Of a DNA stretch of 26,497 nt, positions 3,938-26,497 are shown piece after piece; within the stretch, counting starts at the first letter, position 1; each line of letters opens with the position of its first letter. This stretch comes from a virus. The notes below the pieces were generated by a model that made no database searches, was not told the DNA's origin, and worked only from the letters and a program-made list of their open reading frames with translations. The stretch spans positions 1-26,497 of the IMG/VR virus record IMGVR_UViG_3300042455_003940, one strand, 5' to 3'. Both the position numbers and the translations under genes were made by a program.

Positions 3938-5795
3938 AGTTTACAACGCCGCGTTCAGCGATGGCCTGCGGCCCGATCCGCTGCTGACGGTGTCGAAGTG
4001 GGCGGATCAGTTTCGGATGCTGTCGCAAACGGCTTCCGCTGAACCTGGGCGCTGGCGTACCGACCGCACGCCGTATTTACGCGAAATCATGGACTGCTTG
4101 TCCCCGTCTTTGGGCGTGGAAAAGGTCGTCTTCATGAAAGGCGCCCAGGTCGGCGGTACCGAGGCTGGCAACAACTGGATCGGGTATGTTATCGACCAAG
4201 CGCCGGGGCCGATGCTGGTGGTATTGCCCACCGTGGAAATGGGCAAACGCTGGAGCAAGGGGCGCTTTGCGCCGCTGATTGATGACACGCCGGCTATCCG
4301 CGCCAAGGTCAAAGACCCGCGCAGCCGCGATGCGGGCAACACGGTGCAGAGCAAGGAGTTTCCCGGCGGCATTGTCGTCATCACAGGCGCAAACAGTGCC
4401 GTGGGCCTGCGCTCCATGCCGGTGCGGTATCTGTTCATGGACGAGATCGACGGTTACCCCGGCGATGCCGACGGTGAAGGTGATCCCGTCTCATTGGCGG
4501 TACAGCGCACCGCCACATTTGCTCGGCGCAAGATTCTTGAAGTCTCTACGCCCACGGTGAGCGGCCTCAGCCGCATTGAAAAAGAATTTGAATCCTCTGA
4601 TCAGCGCTTCTTCCATGTGCCGTGCCCCGTGTGTGGGCATATGCAGGTGCTGAAATGGGCGCAGTTGCGCTGGCAGGATAATGACCCCGCCACGGTGCGT
4701 TATCACTGCGAAGCGTGTGACACGCCGATTCCCAACCACGGCAAAAGCCGGATGTTGGAGGGCGGCGAATGGCGCAGCACAGCGGTTGGTGATGGCAAAA
4801 CCCGTGGCTATCACCTGTCGTCGCTGTACAGCCCCGTGGGCTGGTTTTCATGGGAAGAAGCGGTACGGGGATTCCTGAAAGCCAAGGACGATGAAGCGCA
4901 ACTGAAAGTCTGGGTGAACACCGTGCTGGGCGAAACCTGGGTGGATCGCGGCGAAGCGCCGGACTGGCAGCGGCTTTATGAGCGGCGGGAAACCTATCCT
5001 CTCGGGATTATCCCCCCATCTGGCCTGTTGCTCACCGCCGGTACAGACATCCAGAAAGACCGCATCGAGGTTGAGGTGGTTGCTTGGGGCAAAGGCAAGG
5101 AAAGCTGGTCGGTGGATTACCGTATTTTGTACGGCGATCCGGCACAAGAAGCTGTCTGGCAACAATTGCAAACGCTGCTGGCCGAACCCTTCCGCCATGC
5201 CAGCGGCGTTGATCTTACGATCCGCGCCCTGGCGGTGGATACGGGCTTTGCCACGCAGGATGTCTACGCGTGGTGCCGCCGGCAGGAAACCGGCCGCGTG
5301 CTGGCGGTGAAGGGCGTGGAACGGGCGATAGCGCCGGTGGGTGCCCCCACGGCAGTCGACGTGAATATCGGCGGCAAACGCCTGCGGCGCGGCGTAAAAG
5401 TCTGGCCAGTGGGGGTTTCGCTGCTGAAATCTGAGCTTTACCAGTGGCTGAAGCTCCAGTGCGGTGAAGACAGCCAGTTTCCCGGCGGATACTGCCACTT
5501 TCCGCAGTATGAAGCCGAATACTTCAAGCAGCTGACCGCCGAACAGCTGGTGACCAAAACCGTCAAGGGCTACCCCAAACGCGAGTGGCAAAAACTGCGG
5601 GAACACAACGAGGCCCTCGACTGCCGGATTTACGCCCGCGCCGCCGCCATCACCCTTGGCATCGAACGCTTCACCGACCGCCATTGGCAGAATCTGGAAG
5701 CGCAACTGATACCTGCCGAGTGCCGTGCCATTGAACCCGTGACAATGAATAAACCTATGCGCCCCCGCGTAACGCGGTCGCGCTGGATGACCTGA
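3921..5795 (+). CDS. Terminase large subunit, GpA family
   Basis: The 624-residue ATPase-nuclease motor that cuts and packages phage DNA into the prohead. The ATPase half shows the variant Walker A (FMKGAQVGGTE, residues 71-81) and Walker B (LFMDEIDGYP, 171-180). A zinc-finger-like pair follows (CPVC at 234-237, CEAC at 262-265). The nuclease half has conserved acids in LTAGTDIQKDRIEVEV, DTGFATQDVYAWC and ALDCRIYARAA. Length is normal for the lambda gpA group. ATG 3921 is chosen over an in-frame TTG at 3906; either start overlaps the small-subunit gene. The gene gpW follows 1 nt after the stop. The protein looks complete. Confidence 0.95.
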   Translation: MPTTAEVYNAAFSDGLRPDPLLTVSKWADQFRMLSQTASAEPGRWRTDRTPYLREIMDCLSPSLGVEKVVFMKGAQVGGTEAGNNWIGYVIDQAPGPMLVVLPTVEMGKRWSKGRFAPLIDDTPAIRAKVKDPRSRDAGNTVQSKEFPGGIVVITGANSAVGLRSMPVRYLFMDEIDGYPGDADGEGDPVSLAVQRTATFARRKILEVSTPTVSGLSRIEKEFESSDQRFFHVPCPVCGHMQVLKWAQLRWQDNDPATVRYHCEACDTPIPNHGKSRMLEGGEWRSTAVGDGKTRGYHLSSLYSPVGWFSWEEAVRGFLKAKDDEAQLKVWVNTVLGETWVDRGEAPDWQRLYERRETYPLGIIPPSGLLLTAGTDIQKDRIEVEVVAWGKGKESWSVDYRILYGDPAQEAVWQQLQTLLAEPFRHASGVDLTIRALAVDTGFATQDVYAWCRRQETGRVLAVKGVERAIAPVGAPTAVDVNIGGKRLRRGVKVWPVGVSLLKSELYQWLKLQCGEDSQFPGGYCHFPQYEAEYFKQLTAEQLVTKTVKGYPKREWQKLREHNEALDCRIYARAAAITLGIERFTDRHWQNLEAQLIPAECRAIEPVTMNKPMRPRVTRSRWMT

Positions 5796-5796
5796 T

Positions 5797-6024
5797 ATGG
5801 CCTACATCGAACAAGACCTCACCGACATCGAAACCGCTATCCGCAAACTGCAAAGCGGTGAGCGGGTGGCGTCTGTTGCCTATGACGGTAAAACCGTGAG
5901 CTACAGCCAAGTGCAGTTGGGCGAGCTGATTTCTCTGCGCGACCGTATCCGCCAAGAGGTTAAAATCACCACGGGTGCCAAAACCCGTCAAATCCGTGTG
6001 TTTACCAGCAAAGGTGTGGAATGA
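5797..6024 (+). CDS. gpW-family head-tail joining protein
   Basis: A 75-residue structural protein. The sequence matches the gpW pattern: an N-terminal helix (DLTDIETAIRKLQSG), a short beta hairpin (VASVAYDGKTVSYS), a second helix (ELISLRDRIRQEV) and a basic tail ending RQIRVFTSKG. In lambda, gpW seals the packaged head below the portal ahead of tail attachment. The position between terminase and portal is the expected one. Start and stop overlap or abut both neighbours (TGATATG upstream, ATGA downstream), indicating translational coupling. This is the only head-tail joining protein left in the window; the others expected after the capsid gene are missing. Confidence 0.8.
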   Translation: MAYIEQDLTDIETAIRKLQSGERVASVAYDGKTVSYSQVQLGELISLRDRIRQEVKITTGAKTRQIRVFTSKGVE

Positions 6025-9930: not shown

Positions 9931-9950
9931 TTTGCTTTTTAAATTACAAT
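9922..9950 (+). promoter_or_regulatory. Near-consensus sigma70 promoter of the restriction-modification cassette
   Basis: TTGACA (9922-9927), a 17-bp spacer and TACAAT (9945-9950) differ from the consensus by one base. The -35 box overlaps the stop codon of the truncated capsid gene. Transcription would start near 9957, leaving a leader of about 26 nt before the methylase ATG. It allows expression in the lysogen independently of late phage transcription. Confidence 0.75.
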
Positions 9951-9982
9951 CCCAATTGAAGATACGTAGCTCGGGTAGGAAT

Positions 9983-11122
9983 ATGAAAAAACCAATTGTG
10001 TTTTCTTTTTTTTCAGGGGCAGGATTCTTAGATTTGGGATTTGAAAAAGCAGGGTTTGAAGTTGCTTACGTCAATGAAATCCATACTCCTTTTTTAGAAG
10101 CTTATCAATATTCCCGTCATGAAATGCATATTGCCCCTCCGCGGTATGGTTACTTTCAGGGAGATATAGCTGATTGTTTTGAAGGCATAGAATCAGTCCG
10201 CTTAAGTTCTCTAGTAAATGAGGTAAAAAAGGAAGGACATCTAATAGGTTTTATTGGTGGCCCGCCATGCCCAGATTTTTCTGTTGGTGGAAAAAATCGT
10301 GGTCGTAACGGTGAGAATGGAAAGTTGTCTAAAACCTTTATTGACCTTATATGCGCAAAACAGCCGGATTTTTTTGTTTTTGAAAATGTGAAAGGGCTCT
10401 ATCGAACTTCACGTCACCGTGAATTTTTTGATGAATTAAAAAAGCAAATTGAAAAAGCTGGGTATGAATGGACAGAACGCCTTATAAACGCGATTGAGTA
10501 TGGGGCTCCTCAAGACCGCGAGCGAATAATACTTTTTGGTGCTAAGAAAGATTCTTATAGACAAATATGTAAATTTGAATGGTTATTGCACACCACATAT
10601 CCTGAAAGCAAGGCGTTTGAATATAAATGGCCCTCCGCCCAACCAATAACAATTTCCCGCTCCAAGCCTGAAGCCATAGCTGAAGAACTTACACTTCAAT
10701 ACTGGTTTAAAAAGAATGATGTAGAAAATCATCCTAATGCACAGCATCAATTCAAGCCAAGAGCAGGATTGGCCAAATTTGAAGTAATAGATGAAGGTGA
10801 TGATGCTAAGAAATCTTACAAACGACTACATCGCTGGCGATATTCTCCAACTGCTGCCTATGGGAACAATGAAGTTCACATACATCCGTACCTACCAAGA
10901 CGTATATCTGTTGCTGAAGCATTAGCAATACAATCTTTGCCAAAAGAGTTTGAACTACCCCCAAAAATGTCACTAAGTAATATGTTTAAAACGGTAGGCA
11001 ACGGTGTTCCGTATCTTGCCGCACTTGGCTTGGCACTAACTATTATGGATTTTTTAAAACGAGGACAAAATTATGAGGTTAACAGCGAGCAATATCGTGA
11101 GAGCGATAGAAAAGCTTCCTAA
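9983..11122 (+). CDS. Type II DNA (cytosine-5) methyltransferase of the R-M cassette
   Basis: A 379-residue modification enzyme methylating cytosine C5 at the site cut by its partner. Motif I is FSFFSGAGFLDLGF (residues 7-20). Motif IV is GGPPCPDFS with catalytic Cys96; the usual PCQ is PCP here. Motif VI is ENV at 134-136, motif VIII QDRER at 177-181, and motif X GNGVPYLAALGLA near residue 340. The target-recognition region lies roughly between residues 190 and 330. The ATG at 9983 has AGGA very close upstream. The gene overlaps the nuclease gene by 50 nt, which favours methylase synthesis first. It is AT-rich compared with the phage genes, pointing to a different source. It is unrelated in sequence to the phage C5 enzyme at 142. 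Confidence 0.92.
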   Translation: MKKPIVFSFFSGAGFLDLGFEKAGFEVAYVNEIHTPFLEAYQYSRHEMHIAPPRYGYFQGDIADCFEGIESVRLSSLVNEVKKEGHLIGFIGGPPCPDFSVGGKNRGRNGENGKLSKTFIDLICAKQPDFFVFENVKGLYRTSRHREFFDELKKQIEKAGYEWTERLINAIEYGAPQDRERIILFGAKKDSYRQICKFEWLLHTTYPESKAFEYKWPSAQPITISRSKPEAIAEELTLQYWFKKNDVENHPNAQHQFKPRAGLAKFEVIDEGDDAKKSYKRLHRWRYSPTAAYGNNEVHIHPYLPRRISVAEALAIQSLPKEFELPPKMSLSNMFKTVGNGVPYLAALGLALTIMDFLKRGQNYEVNSEQYRESDRKAS

Positions 11123-12158
11123 GGATCAATGGTTTGAATATGTGAGCCCCCGCGCCAAAACTAAGGTTAAGGTTGTCAGTATTACGAAACCTGAGGGACC
11201 TATTGCTATTCGACGCAAAGAAACAGGTAAAACAGCTAAAGAAAATGATGTTTCGATTTCTACGACAATGTTATGGCGTATTGCAAATGCCTTTCAACCC
11301 AAAGTTCCAGTTAACTTCGACCGTATTTTAGGAGCAAGCTACAATACAAGGTCAGCTTTAGAAGCCTTAATGGCACACACTTCTGAATTTTTTTGGTGCA
11401 CACCCGGAAGAATTGAGCTTGTAAATTCCACTCAAGAAATCAAGATTGGTCATAAACACATAGTATGGCTGCCAGATAATCCGCACACCAATGGCATCAT
11501 GCAAAAATTTGATACAGACGTTGTTATATCGGAAATTCCCTCTTCCAATGCTATATATGAAGCCCTTTCTTTACCAAATATCTTGGGAGAAAGAATAAAA
11601 GACATTGAAGTGCAACGTAGACACCTACAAATTCAAATCGCGCTGGTTGCTATCGGTCATCAACTTGGATTCAGAACGTGGGTGGCTCGCAATGATCAAG
11701 GCATTAAATATGGTGAAAAAAAAGTCGGGGAACTAGATGGAGTTGTTGTTAATCTAAGCCAAGAGAATCTTTTAAAATCTTACGAAGATGCTGTAGCAGC
11801 TGCATTGCATATAGATTGTATATGGTTCCGTAACGGAAAATTTTTGCCAGCTGTAATGGAAGTGGAACACAGTACAGGTGTTACATCCGGCTTATCTCGT
11901 ATGAAGAATCTACAGGATAAATTACCACCTTTTTTGACACGCTGGGTTATCGTTGCGCCAGACGAAGATAGAGACAAAGTTTTGAAGGAAGCTAACAAAT
12001 CTCAGTTTCAATCTTTACGTACCATGTTTTTTCCATATTCTGCCGTTGATGAATTATACGCTTTATGTCAAAAGCGTAGGCTAACAAATAAATCAGTCAA
12101 TGAAGAGTTCCTTGATTGTTTTATGGAGCCATGTTTTCAACCTCTGGCTTTGAACTAA
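11073..12158 (+). CDS. Probable type II restriction endonuclease, partner of the upstream methylase
   Basis: A 361-residue protein assigned mainly from its tight overlap with a C5 methylase. I do not recognise a named enzyme family. The C-terminal half has a plausible PD-(D/E)XK-type core: GELDGVVV (218-226), Asp248 in HIDCIWF, then VMEVEHSTGV with Glu263 and Glu265, followed by LTRWVIVAPDEDR. That pattern (strand with EVEH, then a VAP strand) recurs in several restriction nucleases. Residues 1-180 probably recognise DNA. AGGA lies 7 nt before the ATG. No controller (C) protein gene is present. The stop at 12156-12158 abuts tail-tube sequence in the same frame, so its last residues could derive from the junction. 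Confidence 0.75.
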   Translation: MRLTASNIVRAIEKLPKDQWFEYVSPRAKTKVKVVSITKPEGPIAIRRKETGKTAKENDVSISTTMLWRIANAFQPKVPVNFDRILGASYNTRSALEALMAHTSEFFWCTPGRIELVNSTQEIKIGHKHIVWLPDNPHTNGIMQKFDTDVVISEIPSSNAIYEALSLPNILGERIKDIEVQRRHLQIQIALVAIGHQLGFRTWVARNDQGIKYGEKKVGELDGVVVNLSQENLLKSYEDAVAAALHIDCIWFRNGKFLPAVMEVEHSTGVTSGLSRMKNLQDKLPPFLTRWVIVAPDEDRDKVLKEANKSQFQSLRTMFFPYSAVDELYALCQKRRLTNKSVNEEFLDCFMEPCFQPLALN

Positions 12159-17766: not shown

Positions 17767-18384
17767 ATGGCTCAGCTTGCTCTTGCTGGGGCTGGGGCAC
17801 TGGTCGGAAGTGCTTTTGGGGCCCCGTACCTGGGCTTTGCGCTAGGTTCTCTGCTGGGCGGTGTTCTGTTTCCGCAGGACGGCCCGCCAGATCAAATCCA
17901 AGAAGGGCCGCGCCTGCATGACCTGAAAGTCCAGTCCTCAGCGCATGGCACGATGCTGCCGCTGCTGTATGGCACGGTGCGTATTGCGGGCAACGTCATC
18001 TGGGCGGCAGACCTCGAAGAACAGGTGGTCACGGAAACCAACTCCGGCAACGGCGGTAAAGGCGGCGGCGGATCGGTGACCAGCACCACCCGTACCTATA
18101 TCTATTTCGCCAGCTTCGCCGTGGGGCTGTGCGCGGGATCGATTGCCTCGGTGGAACGGGTGTGGGCGAACGGCAAGCTGGTGCATGATGTCAACAGCAG
18201 CTTGCTGGATATGACGGTGTACCTCGGAAACGAGACGCAAAACCCCGACGACCGCATTGAAAGTGCGCTTGGCGTTGGCTTTGTGCCTGCCTATCGCGGC
18301 ATGGCCTATGCTGTCATCAACCGCCTGAACCTCACCGATTACGGCAACCAGATTCCCAATTTGCACTTCGAGGTGACGGCGTAA
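17767..18384 (+). CDS. Tail-tip protein, N-terminal module of a GTA gp15-like protein
   Basis: A 205-residue protein corresponding to the start of the large gp15-type tail protein. It has a Gly/Ala-rich hydrophobic N-terminus, then GPRLHDLKVQSSAHGTMLPL and YGTVRIAGNVIWAADL, a Gly-rich loop (GNGGKGGGGS), TYIYFASFAVGLCAGSIASVERVWANGKLVHD, and YRGMAYAVINRLNLTDYGNQIPNLHFEV. In most relatives this segment continues into a TIM-barrel domain; here the gene stops. The next gene begins with a second, divergent copy of the same module. The start overlap with that gene (TAATG) implies coupled translation. Confidence 0.85.
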   Translation: MAQLALAGAGALVGSAFGAPYLGFALGSLLGGVLFPQDGPPDQIQEGPRLHDLKVQSSAHGTMLPLLYGTVRIAGNVIWAADLEEQVVTETNSGNGGKGGGGSVTSTTRTYIYFASFAVGLCAGSIASVERVWANGKLVHDVNSSLLDMTVYLGNETQNPDDRIESALGVGFVPAYRGMAYAVINRLNLTDYGNQIPNLHFEVTA

Positions 18385-20015
18385 TGGCGATGCTGGTACT
18401 CGGTGCTGCTGGCGCAGGCATGGGATCGGGTTTTGCCATGGCAGGCTTAGGGCTGGGCATTGCCGCCGCTATGGGGGGGTTCAGCGCAGCGGGGAGTTTG
18501 CCCAACGCCGATGCCTATCAGGTGGGACCGCGCCTGGAAGATTTGAAAGCGCAGTCATCTGCCCACGGCGCGATGATTCCGCTGGTCTACGGCATCACTC
18601 GTGTGGCGGGGAATGTCATTTGGTCAACCGACATCACCGCCACATCGGAAAACGTGCTGGTGGGCACCACGGTGATTGAGGGCGGCAAGAGCGGGCGAAC
18701 CCAACCTGTCTACCAAACGCGGGAATTTTATGTGGCCAGTTTCGCCGTTTCGTTCGCCAATACGCTGGCGTTAGAAGAGGAAGGCAGTGCACGGGAAAGC
18801 TTCGAGGATGAGGACGAACTGACCTTCAAACGCCGCCAAGGCATCTCGGCGATGCGGCGCATCTGGATGAACCGCAATCTAGTGTATGATTTTCGTGCCA
18901 ACAATCGCGGCGTAAATGGTCGTGATCTCAATGTGGAAATCTACCTCGGCGGCGAAGAGCAAGCCCCCGATGAATTGATCGAAAGCCTTGAAGGCATCGG
19001 CGAAACGCCTGCCTACCGCGATCATGCTTACTTGCGCTTTGAAACCATTGATTTATCCCGTTACGGCAACCGCCTGCCCAACGTGGAAGCAGAAGTTATC
19101 GACACGCTGGGGCGGGTATTCACCGAAGAAGGCCCGCATGGCCTCGCCGAAGGGCTGGACGGCGATATCTATGTCGTGAATCGCCTGCAGCGCACGGTGA
19201 CGCGCATTGACGGCACAACGTTTCGGGTTAAGGCGACCCTTGGCCGCAATAGCGCCGACTATTTAGGGGCTCTGGACGCACAGCCTGTGCGGGCGGCGGT
19301 CAGCCCCGTGGACGGCCACCTGTGGGTCACCTGCCATGCCAATAACACTGTGCAGCGGATTAATCCTGCGACAAACGCGATTATCGCAACCATTAACACG
19401 GGGATTTACCCTTGGGGCGTCAAAGTTGCTGCCGATGGTTTTGTCTGGATCACCTGCCCATGGGCGGATGGGGTGCAGAAGATTAACCCCGCCACCAACA
19501 GCATTATTGCCAGTTACACGGTAAGCGAATGCCCCACCGAGCTGTCCTTTGGCCTCGATGGCGATCTGTGGGTGACAACCAATGAAGGCGTGGTGCGGCT
19601 CAACTCCGCTACGGGTGTCATCAAAGCGACAATTCCCTTGGGCTTCTTTCCGTGGGGCATTGCCGTTAACCCCGTGAATGGCTTCATTTGGGTGGTGGTG
19701 AACGGGCAGGACATCCTGCAGGTCATCAATCCTGCGACCAATTCCATCACCAAAACGCTGAACCACGGCACAAACGCCATGGATGTCAGCATTCACCCGC
19801 TTGATCCATTCGGGATTGTCTGGAGCACGTCTTACGGCGGTAATCGGGTTCGTTCCTACAGTCCGAAGGAGGGATTCGCCAAGGACGGCGGTTATCTGTC
19901 GCTGATTCAATACGGAACGGTGGCGTTTCCGGGGCAAGTGCTGGCGCTGCGGGATGGGCGGTTTGTGGTCACCCAAACCAAATACGATTTTGTCCTGATC
20001 GGCGAAGGCTACTGA
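18384..20015 (+). CDS. Tail-tip protein with fused beta-propeller
   Basis: A 543-residue protein in two parts. Residues 1-240 repeat the module of the preceding gene (VGPRLEDLKAQSSAHGAM, YGITRVAGNVIW, YVASFAVSFA, RRIWMNRNLVYD, RYGNRLPNVEAEV), with an acidic insertion near 130-145. Residues 245-543 are a beta-propeller of the NHL/streptogramin-lyase-like type. Blades of about 40 residues carry the repeat INPATNxI or similar (near 323, 362, 402 and 444), each followed by a GxxPWG or DGxLWVT strand. Propellers of this kind bind ligands or glycans. The fusion suggests receptor or polysaccharide binding at the tail tip. No virginiamycin-lyase activity is claimed. Confidence 0.85.
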   Translation: MAMLVLGAAGAGMGSGFAMAGLGLGIAAAMGGFSAAGSLPNADAYQVGPRLEDLKAQSSAHGAMIPLVYGITRVAGNVIWSTDITATSENVLVGTTVIEGGKSGRTQPVYQTREFYVASFAVSFANTLALEEEGSARESFEDEDELTFKRRQGISAMRRIWMNRNLVYDFRANNRGVNGRDLNVEIYLGGEEQAPDELIESLEGIGETPAYRDHAYLRFETIDLSRYGNRLPNVEAEVIDTLGRVFTEEGPHGLAEGLDGDIYVVNRLQRTVTRIDGTTFRVKATLGRNSADYLGALDAQPVRAAVSPVDGHLWVTCHANNTVQRINPATNAIIATINTGIYPWGVKVAADGFVWITCPWADGVQKINPATNSIIASYTVSECPTELSFGLDGDLWVTTNEGVVRLNSATGVIKATIPLGFFPWGIAVNPVNGFIWVVVNGQDILQVINPATNSITKTLNHGTNAMDVSIHPLDPFGIVWSTSYGGNRVRSYSPKEGFAKDGGYLSLIQYGTVAFPGQVLALRDGRFVVTQTKYDFVLIGEGY

Positions 20016-23984: not shown

Positions 23985-24176
23985 ATGAACGCGGACGTTT
24001 CCAGCGAATCCGAACACCTGCCCATTCACGTCGCCAAGTGCGAAGAACGGTACAAGATGCTGGAAATGCGACTCTCTCGCCTTGAACGCGCCCTCTATTG
24101 GATTGCCGCTGTGCTGATGACAGGCATGGCGACCATCATTTTCAAATTGTTTTTATTGGTACAGGAGATTGGCTAA
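23985..24176 (+). CDS. Small single-pass membrane protein of the lysis region
   Basis: A 63-residue protein with a soluble charged N-terminal helix (residues 12-37, coiled-coil-like) and one membrane segment at about 38-59 (LYWIAAVLMTGMATIIFKLFLLV). The start is set by GGAGGA 4 nt before ATG 23985. The stop overlaps the holin start (TAATG). The layout resembles XhlA-like or antiholin partners, which tune holin timing, but I do not recognise a specific family. Confidence 0.75.
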   Translation: MNADVSSESEHLPIHVAKCEERYKMLEMRLSRLERALYWIAAVLMTGMATIIFKLFLLVQEIG

Positions 24177-24628
24177 TGTTGACGTTACTCGGATCTTTAC
24201 TGGGGTTTCTGGGCAGTGCTTTTCCCCAAATCCTAAAACTCTTTCAAGAGGCCCATGATCGCCGCCATGAGCTGGCCATTCTTAATTTACAGATGGAGCA
24301 ACAACGGCAGGGGCATCAGCAGCGCTTAGAAGAAATCCAAAGGGATGGGGATATCAAACAATCGTTGGCCCTCTACCAGCACGACAGCCAGCCTGCGGGC
24401 TACAAATGGGTGGAGGCCCTGCGTGCCAGTGTGCGTCCCGTCCTTACATATGCGTTCTTCCTGCTGTTCGCGGCGGTGAAAATTGCCGGATTGTACACCA
24501 TGGTGGGTTTTGACGGGATGTCGCTGGCCGTGGCCCTGCCCTTAATTTGGGATGCAGAAACGCAAGCCCTGTTCGCCGCCATCATGACATTTTGGTTTGG
24601 CCAACGGGCCATGGGCAATAGAAAATAG
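24176..24628 (+). CDS. 3-TM phage holin (GTA holin-like)
   Basis: A 150-residue inner-membrane protein expected to release the endolysin to the periplasm at lysis. It has a hydrophobic N-terminal helix (1-22), a charged helical stretch (25-80, HRRHELAILNLQMEQQRQ), and two further membrane segments (about 90-111, VLTYAFFLLFAAVKIAGLY; and about 130-145, LFAAIMTFWFGQRAMG). The C-terminal FWFGQRAMG motif is typical of this holin type. AGGAG lies 8 nt before the ATG. The endolysin lacks a signal peptide, which fits holin-dependent export. Two accessory genes separate holin and endolysin. Confidence 0.85.
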   Translation: MLTLLGSLLGFLGSAFPQILKLFQEAHDRRHELAILNLQMEQQRQGHQQRLEEIQRDGDIKQSLALYQHDSQPAGYKWVEALRASVRPVLTYAFFLLFAAVKIAGLYTMVGFDGMSLAVALPLIWDAETQALFAAIMTFWFGQRAMGNRK

Positions 24629-24744: not shown

Positions 24745-25056
24745 ATGAAAAAAGACTTAATGAAACGGGTGATCATCGACGTCCAAAACGAAGGCTGCCC
24801 TGAAGCGCACATCGCCCCGCTGCTCGACTGCTTCGAAAGCCTGATGGCGACAGCCGCCAGTGCCTCCTGCCGCCGCGCTTATTATGAGCTTGGCGACTTG
24901 ACGCTGGCCAGCCGCCAAGGATTAGGGGCGTACAGCATAGAAATTGAGCGGATGATGGACAACCACGGCCTTAAGAAAAACGACCACGTCTGGACGGGCA
25001 CCTTCACCGATGGCCAGCACAGCCTGAAGGTGATGGGCTGCCTCGAAGCCCGCTAA
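24745..25056 (+). CDS. Small accessory protein of unknown function
   Basis: A 103-residue soluble protein; I do not recognise its family. It has an N-terminal helical region with Cys residues (NEGCPEAHIAPLLDCFESL, ASASCRRAYYELGDL) and a C-terminal part that looks beta-rich (DHVWTGTFTDGQHSLKVMGCLEAR). AAGGA lies 8 nt before the ATG; Met6 is a second possible start. It has its own promoter-like leader shared with the small gene at 2588. It ends convergently, overlapping the stop of the COG2958-like gene by 4 nt. An accessory (lysogenic-conversion type) gene is likely from its separate leader and position. Confidence 0.65.
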   Translation: MKKDLMKRVIIDVQNEGCPEAHIAPLLDCFESLMATAASASCRRAYYELGDLTLASRQGLGAYSIEIERMMDNHGLKKNDHVWTGTFTDGQHSLKVMGCLEAR

Positions 25057-26009
25057 TCACCGCGACGGGGCTGCCCATCCCAGCCGGTTTCTGGCACTTC
25101 GCCCGTTTGATGAAACTGGCGCACCAGCTTTATGAATTGCCGAAAATCGGTATTTTCCTCGCACAGGCGATTGGCCGTGCTCCAGTCGACCTCCGTGCGG
25201 AAACGTGCGGGGATCACCACTTCACTCTTGGCAATGTCCTCAACGTTCAGCTGAATCACGCCAATGCCGTGGAGTCCATAGAGCATGCGGAGTTCCTTGA
25301 GGGTATCGGGCCCCTCGATGCGTCCAGCGACCAGATAGCCATAATGCGCCCATGAGGAGTTGCTGACCGCCTGAAAATACGCCTCTCGGGTATTGCTGCG
25401 GTTAAGGAGTTTTTTGACCTCAAACGACCACAGCCGCGCCTTGGGGGCCGTCATCTCCCCCACACAATCCCGAAGATCCCGATCCCAATCGCGGGTGAGA
25501 TTTTCCAGCGACACCATATCAGGATAAAGCCATATGTTGCCGCTGAGGCCGCGCCGATTGCTGGATCGTTTTTCGTCAATCCGCTTGGTGTACACATCAA
25601 ATTCTGCCGCAAGATACTGGGCCAACAACGGATACAGATCCGCTTCGCTGAGGGGCATTTCCATCGTTGGCGTTGTGCCAGGGCTGGATTGGTTATCCTT
25701 TTCGATCAAATCAATCTCTTCTTCATCGCTGCGTTCGCTGTAATAGAACCGACGGGGGCGGTCTTCGATGGTTTTGATGTGGGGATCTTTGCTAAAATTA
25801 TGGGGCTTAATTTCTGCGGCAAGCTGCTGAATCAAATCGACTTCTGTTTTAAGGCGCTGATTTTTGCTGCGCTCCATTTTTTGGCGACATTCATGAGGGA
25901 AAGATTTCAAAAGCCATGTTGCCAGCGCCCGCGCCGTAAAGGCCTCCCCTGGCTTTGAGCGCAAAAGCTCAGCCACCCGTTCCGTTGTCAGAGAGAATTT
26001 TTCTTCCAT
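25053..26009 (-). CDS. COG2958-like winged-helix protein with PD-(D/E)XK nuclease signature
   Basis: A 318-residue cytoplasmic protein. Residues 1-92 look like a HARE-HTH/winged-helix domain (TTERVAELLRSKPGEAFTARAL, ending RPRRFYYSE). A linker rich in Glu and Ser follows. Residues 122-305 match the COG2958 core: LYPLLAQYLAAEFDVYTKRI, NIWLYPDMVSL, LWSFEVKKLLNRSN, YFQAVSNSSWAHYGYLVA, LHGIGVIQL. PD (163-164), E197-V-K199 and Q213 reproduce the spacing of a PD-(D/E)XK nuclease. ATG 26009 is chosen over a TTG at 26027. It is oriented against all neighbours and divergent from the lysozyme gene, so it is probably expressed in the lysogen. Its function is unproven; a defence or superinfection role is inferred. 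Confidence 0.75.
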   Translation of the reverse strand: MEEKFSLTTERVAELLRSKPGEAFTARALATWLLKSFPHECRQKMERSKNQRLKTEVDLIQQLAAEIKPHNFSKDPHIKTIEDRPRRFYYSERSDEEEIDLIEKDNQSSPGTTPTMEMPLSEADLYPLLAQYLAAEFDVYTKRIDEKRSSNRRGLSGNIWLYPDMVSLENLTRDWDRDLRDCVGEMTAPKARLWSFEVKKLLNRSNTREAYFQAVSNSSWAHYGYLVAGRIEGPDTLKELRMLYGLHGIGVIQLNVEDIAKSEVVIPARFRTEVDWSTANRLCEENTDFRQFIKLVRQFHQTGEVPETGWDGQPRRGD

Positions 26010-26050
26010 AGGGAGCACTCTTATCAAAAAACACTCGCCTTTACAATCCT

Positions 26051-26497
26051 ATGCGAAACATAAGCAAAACAGGTCTTGATGTGATCAAACGGTTCGAGGG
26101 CTTTTCGCCAACCGTGTACATCTGTCCGGCTGGTTATCCCACCATCGGTTATGGCCATGTGGTAAACCCCGATGAGCGACAACAGTTCGCCAGCGGCATC
26201 ACCTCCGAACAGGCCGAAGCCCTGCTGCGCCAAGATGTGCAAATCGCCGAACGCGCCGTCCTGCGCCTCATCACCGTGCCCCTGACAGACGGACAATTCG
26301 ATGCGCTCGTGTCCTTCACTTTCAATCTCGGCGCTGGTGCCCTGCAACGCTCAACCCTGCGGCGGAAGGTCAATCGCGGCGATCATGCCGCCGTGCCACC
26401 AGAGTTTAGGAAATGGGTCTGGGCGGGGGGACGGAAGTTAGAGGGGTTGGTGAGGCGACGGGAGGCAGAGGCGGCATTATACTCAGCAACGCCCTGA
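26051..26497 (+). CDS. Endolysin, T4-type lysozyme (GH24)
   Basis: A 148-residue muramidase that cuts the N-acetylmuramic acid to N-acetylglucosamine bond of peptidoglycan. Glu16 (KRFEGF), Cys25 (YICPAGYP) and Thr31 (TIGYGH) have exactly the spacing of the T4 catalytic residues Glu11, Asp20 and Thr26. Cys in place of Asp occurs in a known phage subgroup, and T4 lysozyme tolerates this change. The C-terminal lobe is intact (FDALVSFTFNLGAGALQRSTL, then GLVRRREAEAALY). There is no signal peptide or membrane anchor, so the holin is needed. The stop codon is the last three bases of the window. The gene is divergent from the COG2958-like gene, with a 41-bp gap. Confidence 0.92.
   Translation: MRNISKTGLDVIKRFEGFSPTVYICPAGYPTIGYGHVVNPDERQQFASGITSEQAEALLRQDVQIAERAVLRLITVPLTDGQFDALVSFTFNLGAGALQRSTLRRKVNRGDHAAVPPEFRKWVWAGGRKLEGLVRRREAEAALYSATP

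Follow-up and report, generated by a model that had tools for sequence, protein, structure and literature searches.

What does a gene on the minus strand do amid the late genes of a phage? The window considered here, the whole stretch of 26,497 nucleotides that was analysed (IMG/VR record IMGVR_UViG_3300042455_003940), is a linear virus contig of 26.5 kb that ends with the stop codon of a lysozyme gene. Close to that end, a reading frame on the minus strand is open from an ATG at 26009 to a stop at 25053, a length of 318 codons. I will refer to this gene as hrgA, after the protein family discussed below. It converges with a small plus-strand gene, with an overlap of 4 nt, and diverges from the lysozyme gene across a gap of 41 bp. 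Its first-pass annotation as a lone minus-strand gene with a small convergent neighbour is thus borne out by the orientations and the overlap. The same annotation had placed it as cargo between lysis genes, which is right for the lysozyme flank; the other flank is made up of the small gene and a phrog_6637 protein whose match to a holin is weak and sub-threshold. The genes concerned are as follows:

24176..24628, plus strand: phrog_6637 membrane-like protein, ahead of the small gene (phrog_6637, 2.2e-36; weak sub-threshold match to GTA_holin_3TM)
24745..25056, plus strand: small conserved phage gene, 103 aa, judged not to be a partner of hrgA (hrgA-free relatives L154 and L155, family alignment, other cargo adjoining in L178 and L183)
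25053..26009, minus strand: hrgA homologue, 318 aa, winged helix plus PD-(D/E)XK nuclease (open reading frame, homologues, 50-sequence alignment, AlphaFold2 model, dN/dS)
26051..26497, plus strand: lysozyme (endolysin), a phage late gene (Pfam Phage_lysozyme, 1.2e-44; phrog_7 endolysin)

On its 5′ side hrgA has only the lysozyme gene before the contig ends, as is also the case in L093, L096 and L110. Scans for promoters and terminators around hrgA gave no signal above that of shuffled sequence.

Judged by full-length homology to proteins of that name, the product of 25053-26009 is a member of the HrgA family (COG2958-like). By tblastn against plasmids, it is 41-44% identical over 95% of its length to RefSeq HrgA proteins of Proteus, Vibrio, Shewanella and Alteromonas (E about 1e-66 to 1e-68) and 37% identical over 69% to Helicobacter HrgA. 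A homologue on a Candidatus Megaera plasmid, not annotated as HrgA, is 50% identical. More than 560 relatives were found in the genome collection and, with an alignment as query, 64 viral loci in the viral collection. Neither scanning viral contigs with the single sequence nor tblastn of phage records turned up a relative, and blastn of E. coli genomes found no hrgA. Searches of Pfam, NCBIfam, PHROGs and PADLOC returned nothing significant for the window protein, and the PADLOC 2023 models matched neither it nor any of 50 relatives. Against its closest homologue, in the metagenome-assembled genome L010, the window hrgA has a dN/dS of 0.19, indicative of purifying selection, and so the gene has been kept functional.

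The gene had been put forward as a candidate new defence gene, and "new" is right only in part. The family received its name in 2002 in the Helicobacter pylori literature, and hrgA in that species is described, as cited in PMC4615327, PMC4687069 and PMC6563999, as replacing the restriction gene hpyIIIR beside a methylase gene. The literature searched contains no test of HrgA in phage defence and no experimental tie to it, reports neither nuclease nor anti-phage activity for any HrgA and has nothing under COG2958. HrgA of the hpyIII locus of H. pylori and Cj1602 of Campylobacter jejuni belong by homology to the same family as the window protein. The H. pylori protein is linked to a restriction-modification (R-M) locus, and its name is shared in RefSeq by the plasmid homologues at 41-44%, whereas the window gene is phage cargo between late genes with no adjoining methyltransferase.

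The architecture of the protein was assessed from an alignment of 50 relatives and from an AlphaFold2 model (mean pLDDT 89.4, pTM 0.69), which is divided into two domains. The domains and the residues of interest, all encoded on the minus strand, are these:

25725..26009, minus strand: N-terminal winged-helix domain, residues 1-95 (VIA-align of the AlphaFold2 model)
25206..25655, minus strand: PD-(D/E)XK nuclease domain, residues 119-268 (VIA-align of the AlphaFold2 model)
25644..25646, minus strand: E122, first helix of the nuclease core, invariant in 50 relatives
25518..25523, minus strand: P163-D164, motif PD, D164 invariant in 50 relatives and P163 in more than 90%
25413..25421, minus strand: E197-V198-K199, motif ExK, E197 and K199 invariant in 50 relatives
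25371..25373, minus strand: Q213, helix after the ExK strand, invariant in 50 relatives

P163-D164, E197-V198-K199 and Q213 occupy the positions given to them in the first reading of the sequence. P163, D164, E197, K199 and Q213 are all invariant in a smaller alignment (A1) of 8 relatives with 29-51% identity, and in the alignment of 50 the invariant set comprises E122, D164, E197, K199 and Q213. The PD and ExK residues are therefore conserved. In the model, residues 122-231 run in the order helix-strand-strand-strand-helix-strand expected of a PD-(D/E)XK core. The best structural match of residues 119-268 found by VIA-align is the type IIS enzyme PaqCI (Z 9.8, rmsd 3.2 over 132 residues), followed by SPO1766 (Z 8.9), EndoMS (8.1), AspBHI (6.6) and MspJI (6.0), the last two of which are modification-dependent enzymes. 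MmcB-like proteins appear among the structural matches of HrgA in viral models. Foldseek alone found no PDB match to the model at E <= 0.001, so the assignment of the fold rests jointly on motif, topology and the second-look aligner; phmmer against the PDB likewise found no match for the window protein. By its residues and its modelled core fold, the protein is placed in the PD-(D/E)XK nuclease superfamily, with DNA cleavage as its predicted activity.

The N-terminal domain is of a different kind. Residues 1-95 resemble the winged helices of the LACTB2 C-terminal domain (Z 7.1), Zalpha (6.7), Fur (6.3) and FoxO (about 6) in VIA-align. The Pfam model HARE-HTH (PF05066) is matched by 4 of the 50 relatives, all distant members (best 1.1e-10), and has no match to the N-terminus of the window protein. 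When the N-terminal regions of the close and the distant groups were compared by hhalign, the likeness was weak (probability 6%, P 0.006), and the winged helix of the close group, to which the window protein belongs, appears to have diverged from the HARE-HTH of the distant one. The fusion of a winged helix to a PD-(D/E)XK nuclease, as first proposed, is backed by the alignment of 50 relatives, the model and the structural matches alike.

How the gene came to its place can be seen from two close relatives of the phage. The viral contig L154 is 95.8% identical to the window in DNA over 5 kb and L155 is 88% identical, and their copies of the small gene are 95% and 92% identical to that of the window, respectively. 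In both, hrgA is absent: the small gene is followed by a terminator with an 8-bp stem and a T run, and the lysozyme gene begins about 80 bp on. Since L154 and L155 have an empty site, the window carries about 0.9 kb of additional sequence in place of that gap:

25057..26050, no strand: segment with hrgA, in place of the terminator-bearing gap of about 81 bp in close phage relatives (DNA comparison with L154 and L155)

In L010, an hrgA 88% identical to that of the window is accompanied by 46 bp of matching upstream DNA and by just the final 25 codons of the small gene, away from the lysozyme gene, an arrangement to be expected of a moving cassette. In L155 (about 5360-5916), some 500 bp not present in the window lie between the phrog_6637 gene and the small gene, perhaps a second site of cargo.

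The first-pass annotation had suggested that hrgA and the convergent gene at 24745 form a two-gene system, perhaps effector and regulator. Such a pair finds its main support in one betaproteobacterial-type phage group, where a distant homologue of the small gene converges with hrgA at a distance of about 25-30 bp in 38 of 41 testable loci, a count biased upward because the query (alignment A3, limited to a single phage group) consisted of copies that adjoin hrgA; the more diverse alignment A2 was too variable for scanning, and A3 was used in its stead. Against the pairing, the small gene stands without hrgA in L154 and L155, the closest relatives of the phage, and near terminase genes in two Megaera phage-like plasmids, and it faces other neighbours in the place of hrgA, hsdR in L178 and a CD-NTase gene in L183. 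Many chromosomal copies of hrgA, conversely, have no small gene. Co-occurrence of the two is thus not obligate. Nor does the small protein look like a regulator: its predicted alpha/beta fold has no helix-turn-helix, and no convincing structural relative of the model was found (best Z 4.9). The reading of hrgA and its neighbour as effector and regulator is largely refuted by the hrgA-free loci and the fold, and I consider it very improbable indeed. The gene at 24745 is instead a conserved phage gene bordering a cargo slot, and a dedicated pairing with hrgA is not supported. The viral loci L167, L169, L186, L163 and L201 end 3-114 bp from the small gene, possibly through trimming of proviruses at that border.

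If hrgA is mobile cargo, its companions elsewhere may be informative. The neighbours of 149 hrgA genes were clustered and the clusters named with Pfam. The commonest in cellular genomes are HsdR, HsdM and HsdS, followed by type III Mod/Res, SMODS CD-NTase with a SLATT_4-like protein of two transmembrane segments (CBASS-like), McrBC, GmrSD, YhcG and RhuM. Proteus and Vibrio plasmids have the annotated order hsdM-hsdS-hrgA-hsdR, and the order hsdMSR-hrgA is found as well. The gaps are short, as in operons: hrgA follows hsdS by 0-3 bp, hsdR by about 20 bp and CD-NTase by 12 bp, and lies 25-27 bp from McrC. An hsdR gene lies within 4 kb of hrgA in 26 of 78 chromosomal loci as against 0.37 expected (from 49 HSDR_N matches in about 120 Mb, 30 whole genomes), an enrichment of about 70-fold that is inflated by the shared ancestry of hrgA loci. 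On the HrgA tree, however, it takes 16 changes to account for the type I R-M label, and well-supported branches force no fewer than 7 of them; the association has therefore arisen repeatedly. On the 5′ side of hrgA, R-M or other defence genes are present in 19 of the 22 viral contigs that have the border between hrgA and the small gene and enough sequence beyond it. Since the residues are conserved and defence neighbours enriched, the initial proposal of a defence nuclease withstands the comparison.

The window copy, unlike many of its relatives, lies neither inside nor beside a type I hsd operon; for R-M, the window yielded a single pair, which is of type II and about 13 kb away. No Dnd or BREX genes were seen near hrgA. 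A role as the effector of CBASS was considered in view of the 11 loci in which hrgA follows CD-NTase by 12 bp, and rejected: in several of them the SLATT_4-like two-transmembrane gene already precedes CD-NTase, and most copies of hrgA have no CD-NTase beside them. In the betaproteobacterial-type phage group (L012, L032, L033, L047, L116, L121, L133 and others), the slot for cargo by the lysis cassette holds type I R-M, McrBC, GmrSD, type III R-M or the CBASS-like pair of SLATT_4 and CD-NTase.

The architecture, the invariant catalytic-type residues, the purifying selection, the insertion into an empty site and the linkage to R-M and other defence genes are directly supported. Taken together with them, hrgA is probably mobile single-gene cargo encoding a restriction-like nuclease, most likely one that defends a putative lysogen against phages or plasmids. 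As a "moron" it would have slipped into the late region between the conserved small gene and the lysozyme gene, and it may be expressed in the lysogen from its own short upstream region. Its winged helix would bind DNA and its PD-(D/E)XK domain would cut foreign DNA, with HrgA acting alone or alongside R-M. Speculatively, transcription running on from the small gene to lysozyme might silence the antisense hrgA during lytic growth. The target could be modified foreign DNA, as with type IV enzymes, or cleavage could be triggered by failure of R-M, as with PrrC. Solitary copies would favour the reading of modified bases, and the position within operons a response to the inhibition of R-M. I somewhat prefer type IV-like sensing over an R-M-failure trigger, since within 8 kb of about half of the chromosomal copies there is neither R-M nor any other recognised defence gene, although modification-dependent restriction is something I infer only from the winged helix and the R-M neighbours.

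The defensive reading has points against it. No recognised defence gene occurs within 8 kb of 38 of the 78 chromosomal copies, the copy in the window is itself some 13 kb from the type II R-M genes, the family is absent from PADLOC and without reported activity in the literature searched, and PD-(D/E)XK domains also serve repair enzymes, EndoMS and the MmcB-like matches among them. Such matches, in the PDB to EndoMS (Z 8.1) as well as SPO1766 (Z 8.9) and among viral models to MmcB-like proteins, would suit a nuclease of DNA repair or recombination common to phages and bacteria and without a role in defence. That is unlikely, given a patchy distribution, a position as cargo and a roughly 70-fold enrichment of hsdR, all typical of defence genes and not of core repair genes. 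It is more unlikely still that HrgA regulates transcription without being an enzyme, its nuclease domain having decayed. Some distant relatives are annotated merely as HTH domain proteins, but a dead domain would not keep its catalytic-type residues invariant in 50 diverse sequences.

A more serious competitor, possible if clearly not favoured, is a second line of defence like that of PrrC, in which an R-M complex would keep latent HrgA silent until inhibition of the complex by a phage set the nuclease free. The gene for PrrC lies within an R-M locus of type IC, and the protein is released in just this way (PMC12707154, PMC2610378); the order hsdM-hsdS-hrgA-hsdR likewise puts hrgA inside an R-M operon; the partners, moreover, are repeatedly R-M systems, of different types. 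About half of the chromosomal copies and that of the window are nonetheless not beside R-M, so that in the window HrgA would need an R-M system in trans, and hrgA adjoins CBASS-like and McrBC genes as well. The example of RloC indicates that such a link can be loose. The combined proposition that HrgA is a DNA-cutting analogue of PrrC behind R-M and also a recurrent border gene of a slot for defence cargo by the lysis genes of phages is one I regard as doubtful. The likeness to PrrC and RloC, whose genes may sit in type I hsd operons as relatives of hrgA do, stops at the proteins: PrrC is a tRNA-cutting protein with an ABC ATPase, whereas HrgA has a predicted domain of DNA-nuclease type and no ATPase.

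Other known systems resemble the favoured reading of HrgA as a restriction-like defence nuclease in one respect or another. PMC10853773 and PMC12839542 describe REase domains fused to HARE-HTH, which have been predicted to act in Dnd loci as restriction enzymes that discriminate modification and which also figure in lists of BREX effectors. Like HrgA, these combine a winged-helix-type domain with PD-(D/E)XK in the company of defence genes, but the N-terminus of the window protein gives no HARE-HTH match, and Dnd or BREX genes were not seen in its vicinity. The winged-helix fusion endonucleases (DpnI-like, type IV; PMC11037411) also carry winged helix and endonuclease in one protein. There a 6mA-sensing winged helix is joined to HNH, GIY-YIG or PLD, whereas HrgA has a predicted PD-(D/E)XK domain, and its sensing of modification is hypothetical. 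As to position, P2-like prophages have defence hotspots beside conserved anchor genes (PMC9122126), and variable defence cargo beside conserved phage anchors is what hotspots of the P2/P4 type share with the hrgA slot; in the latter, the anchor is a lysis cassette with the small conserved gene, the phage group is another one and hrgA is a recurrent border gene.

For two decades HrgA, to which no molecular function had been assigned, has been followed mainly as an H. pylori marker considered in connection with gastric cancer. From the comparative data it gains a testable role, that of a restriction-associated nuclease that phages and plasmids move about and that occurs throughout Proteobacteria and in some other phyla. 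The slot for defence cargo by the lysis cassette of a phage group could be mined for further systems.

The phage had also been said to carry an R-M system already, and it does: a type II pair at 9932-12158, between the capsid and tail genes, consists of a C5 methyltransferase and a protein matching PADLOC REase_II (PDLC03534). With a GC content of 39% as against 55.6% for the window, the pair looks recently acquired. Two further methyltransferase genes, slightly overlapping, lie at 142-2375 and encode a C5 cytosine methylase and a protein with ParB_N and N6_N4_Mtase domains. At 18384-20015, a protein of the tail region has repeats of the type INPATNSIIATI and resembles a YVTN-type beta-propeller within a phage tail protein.
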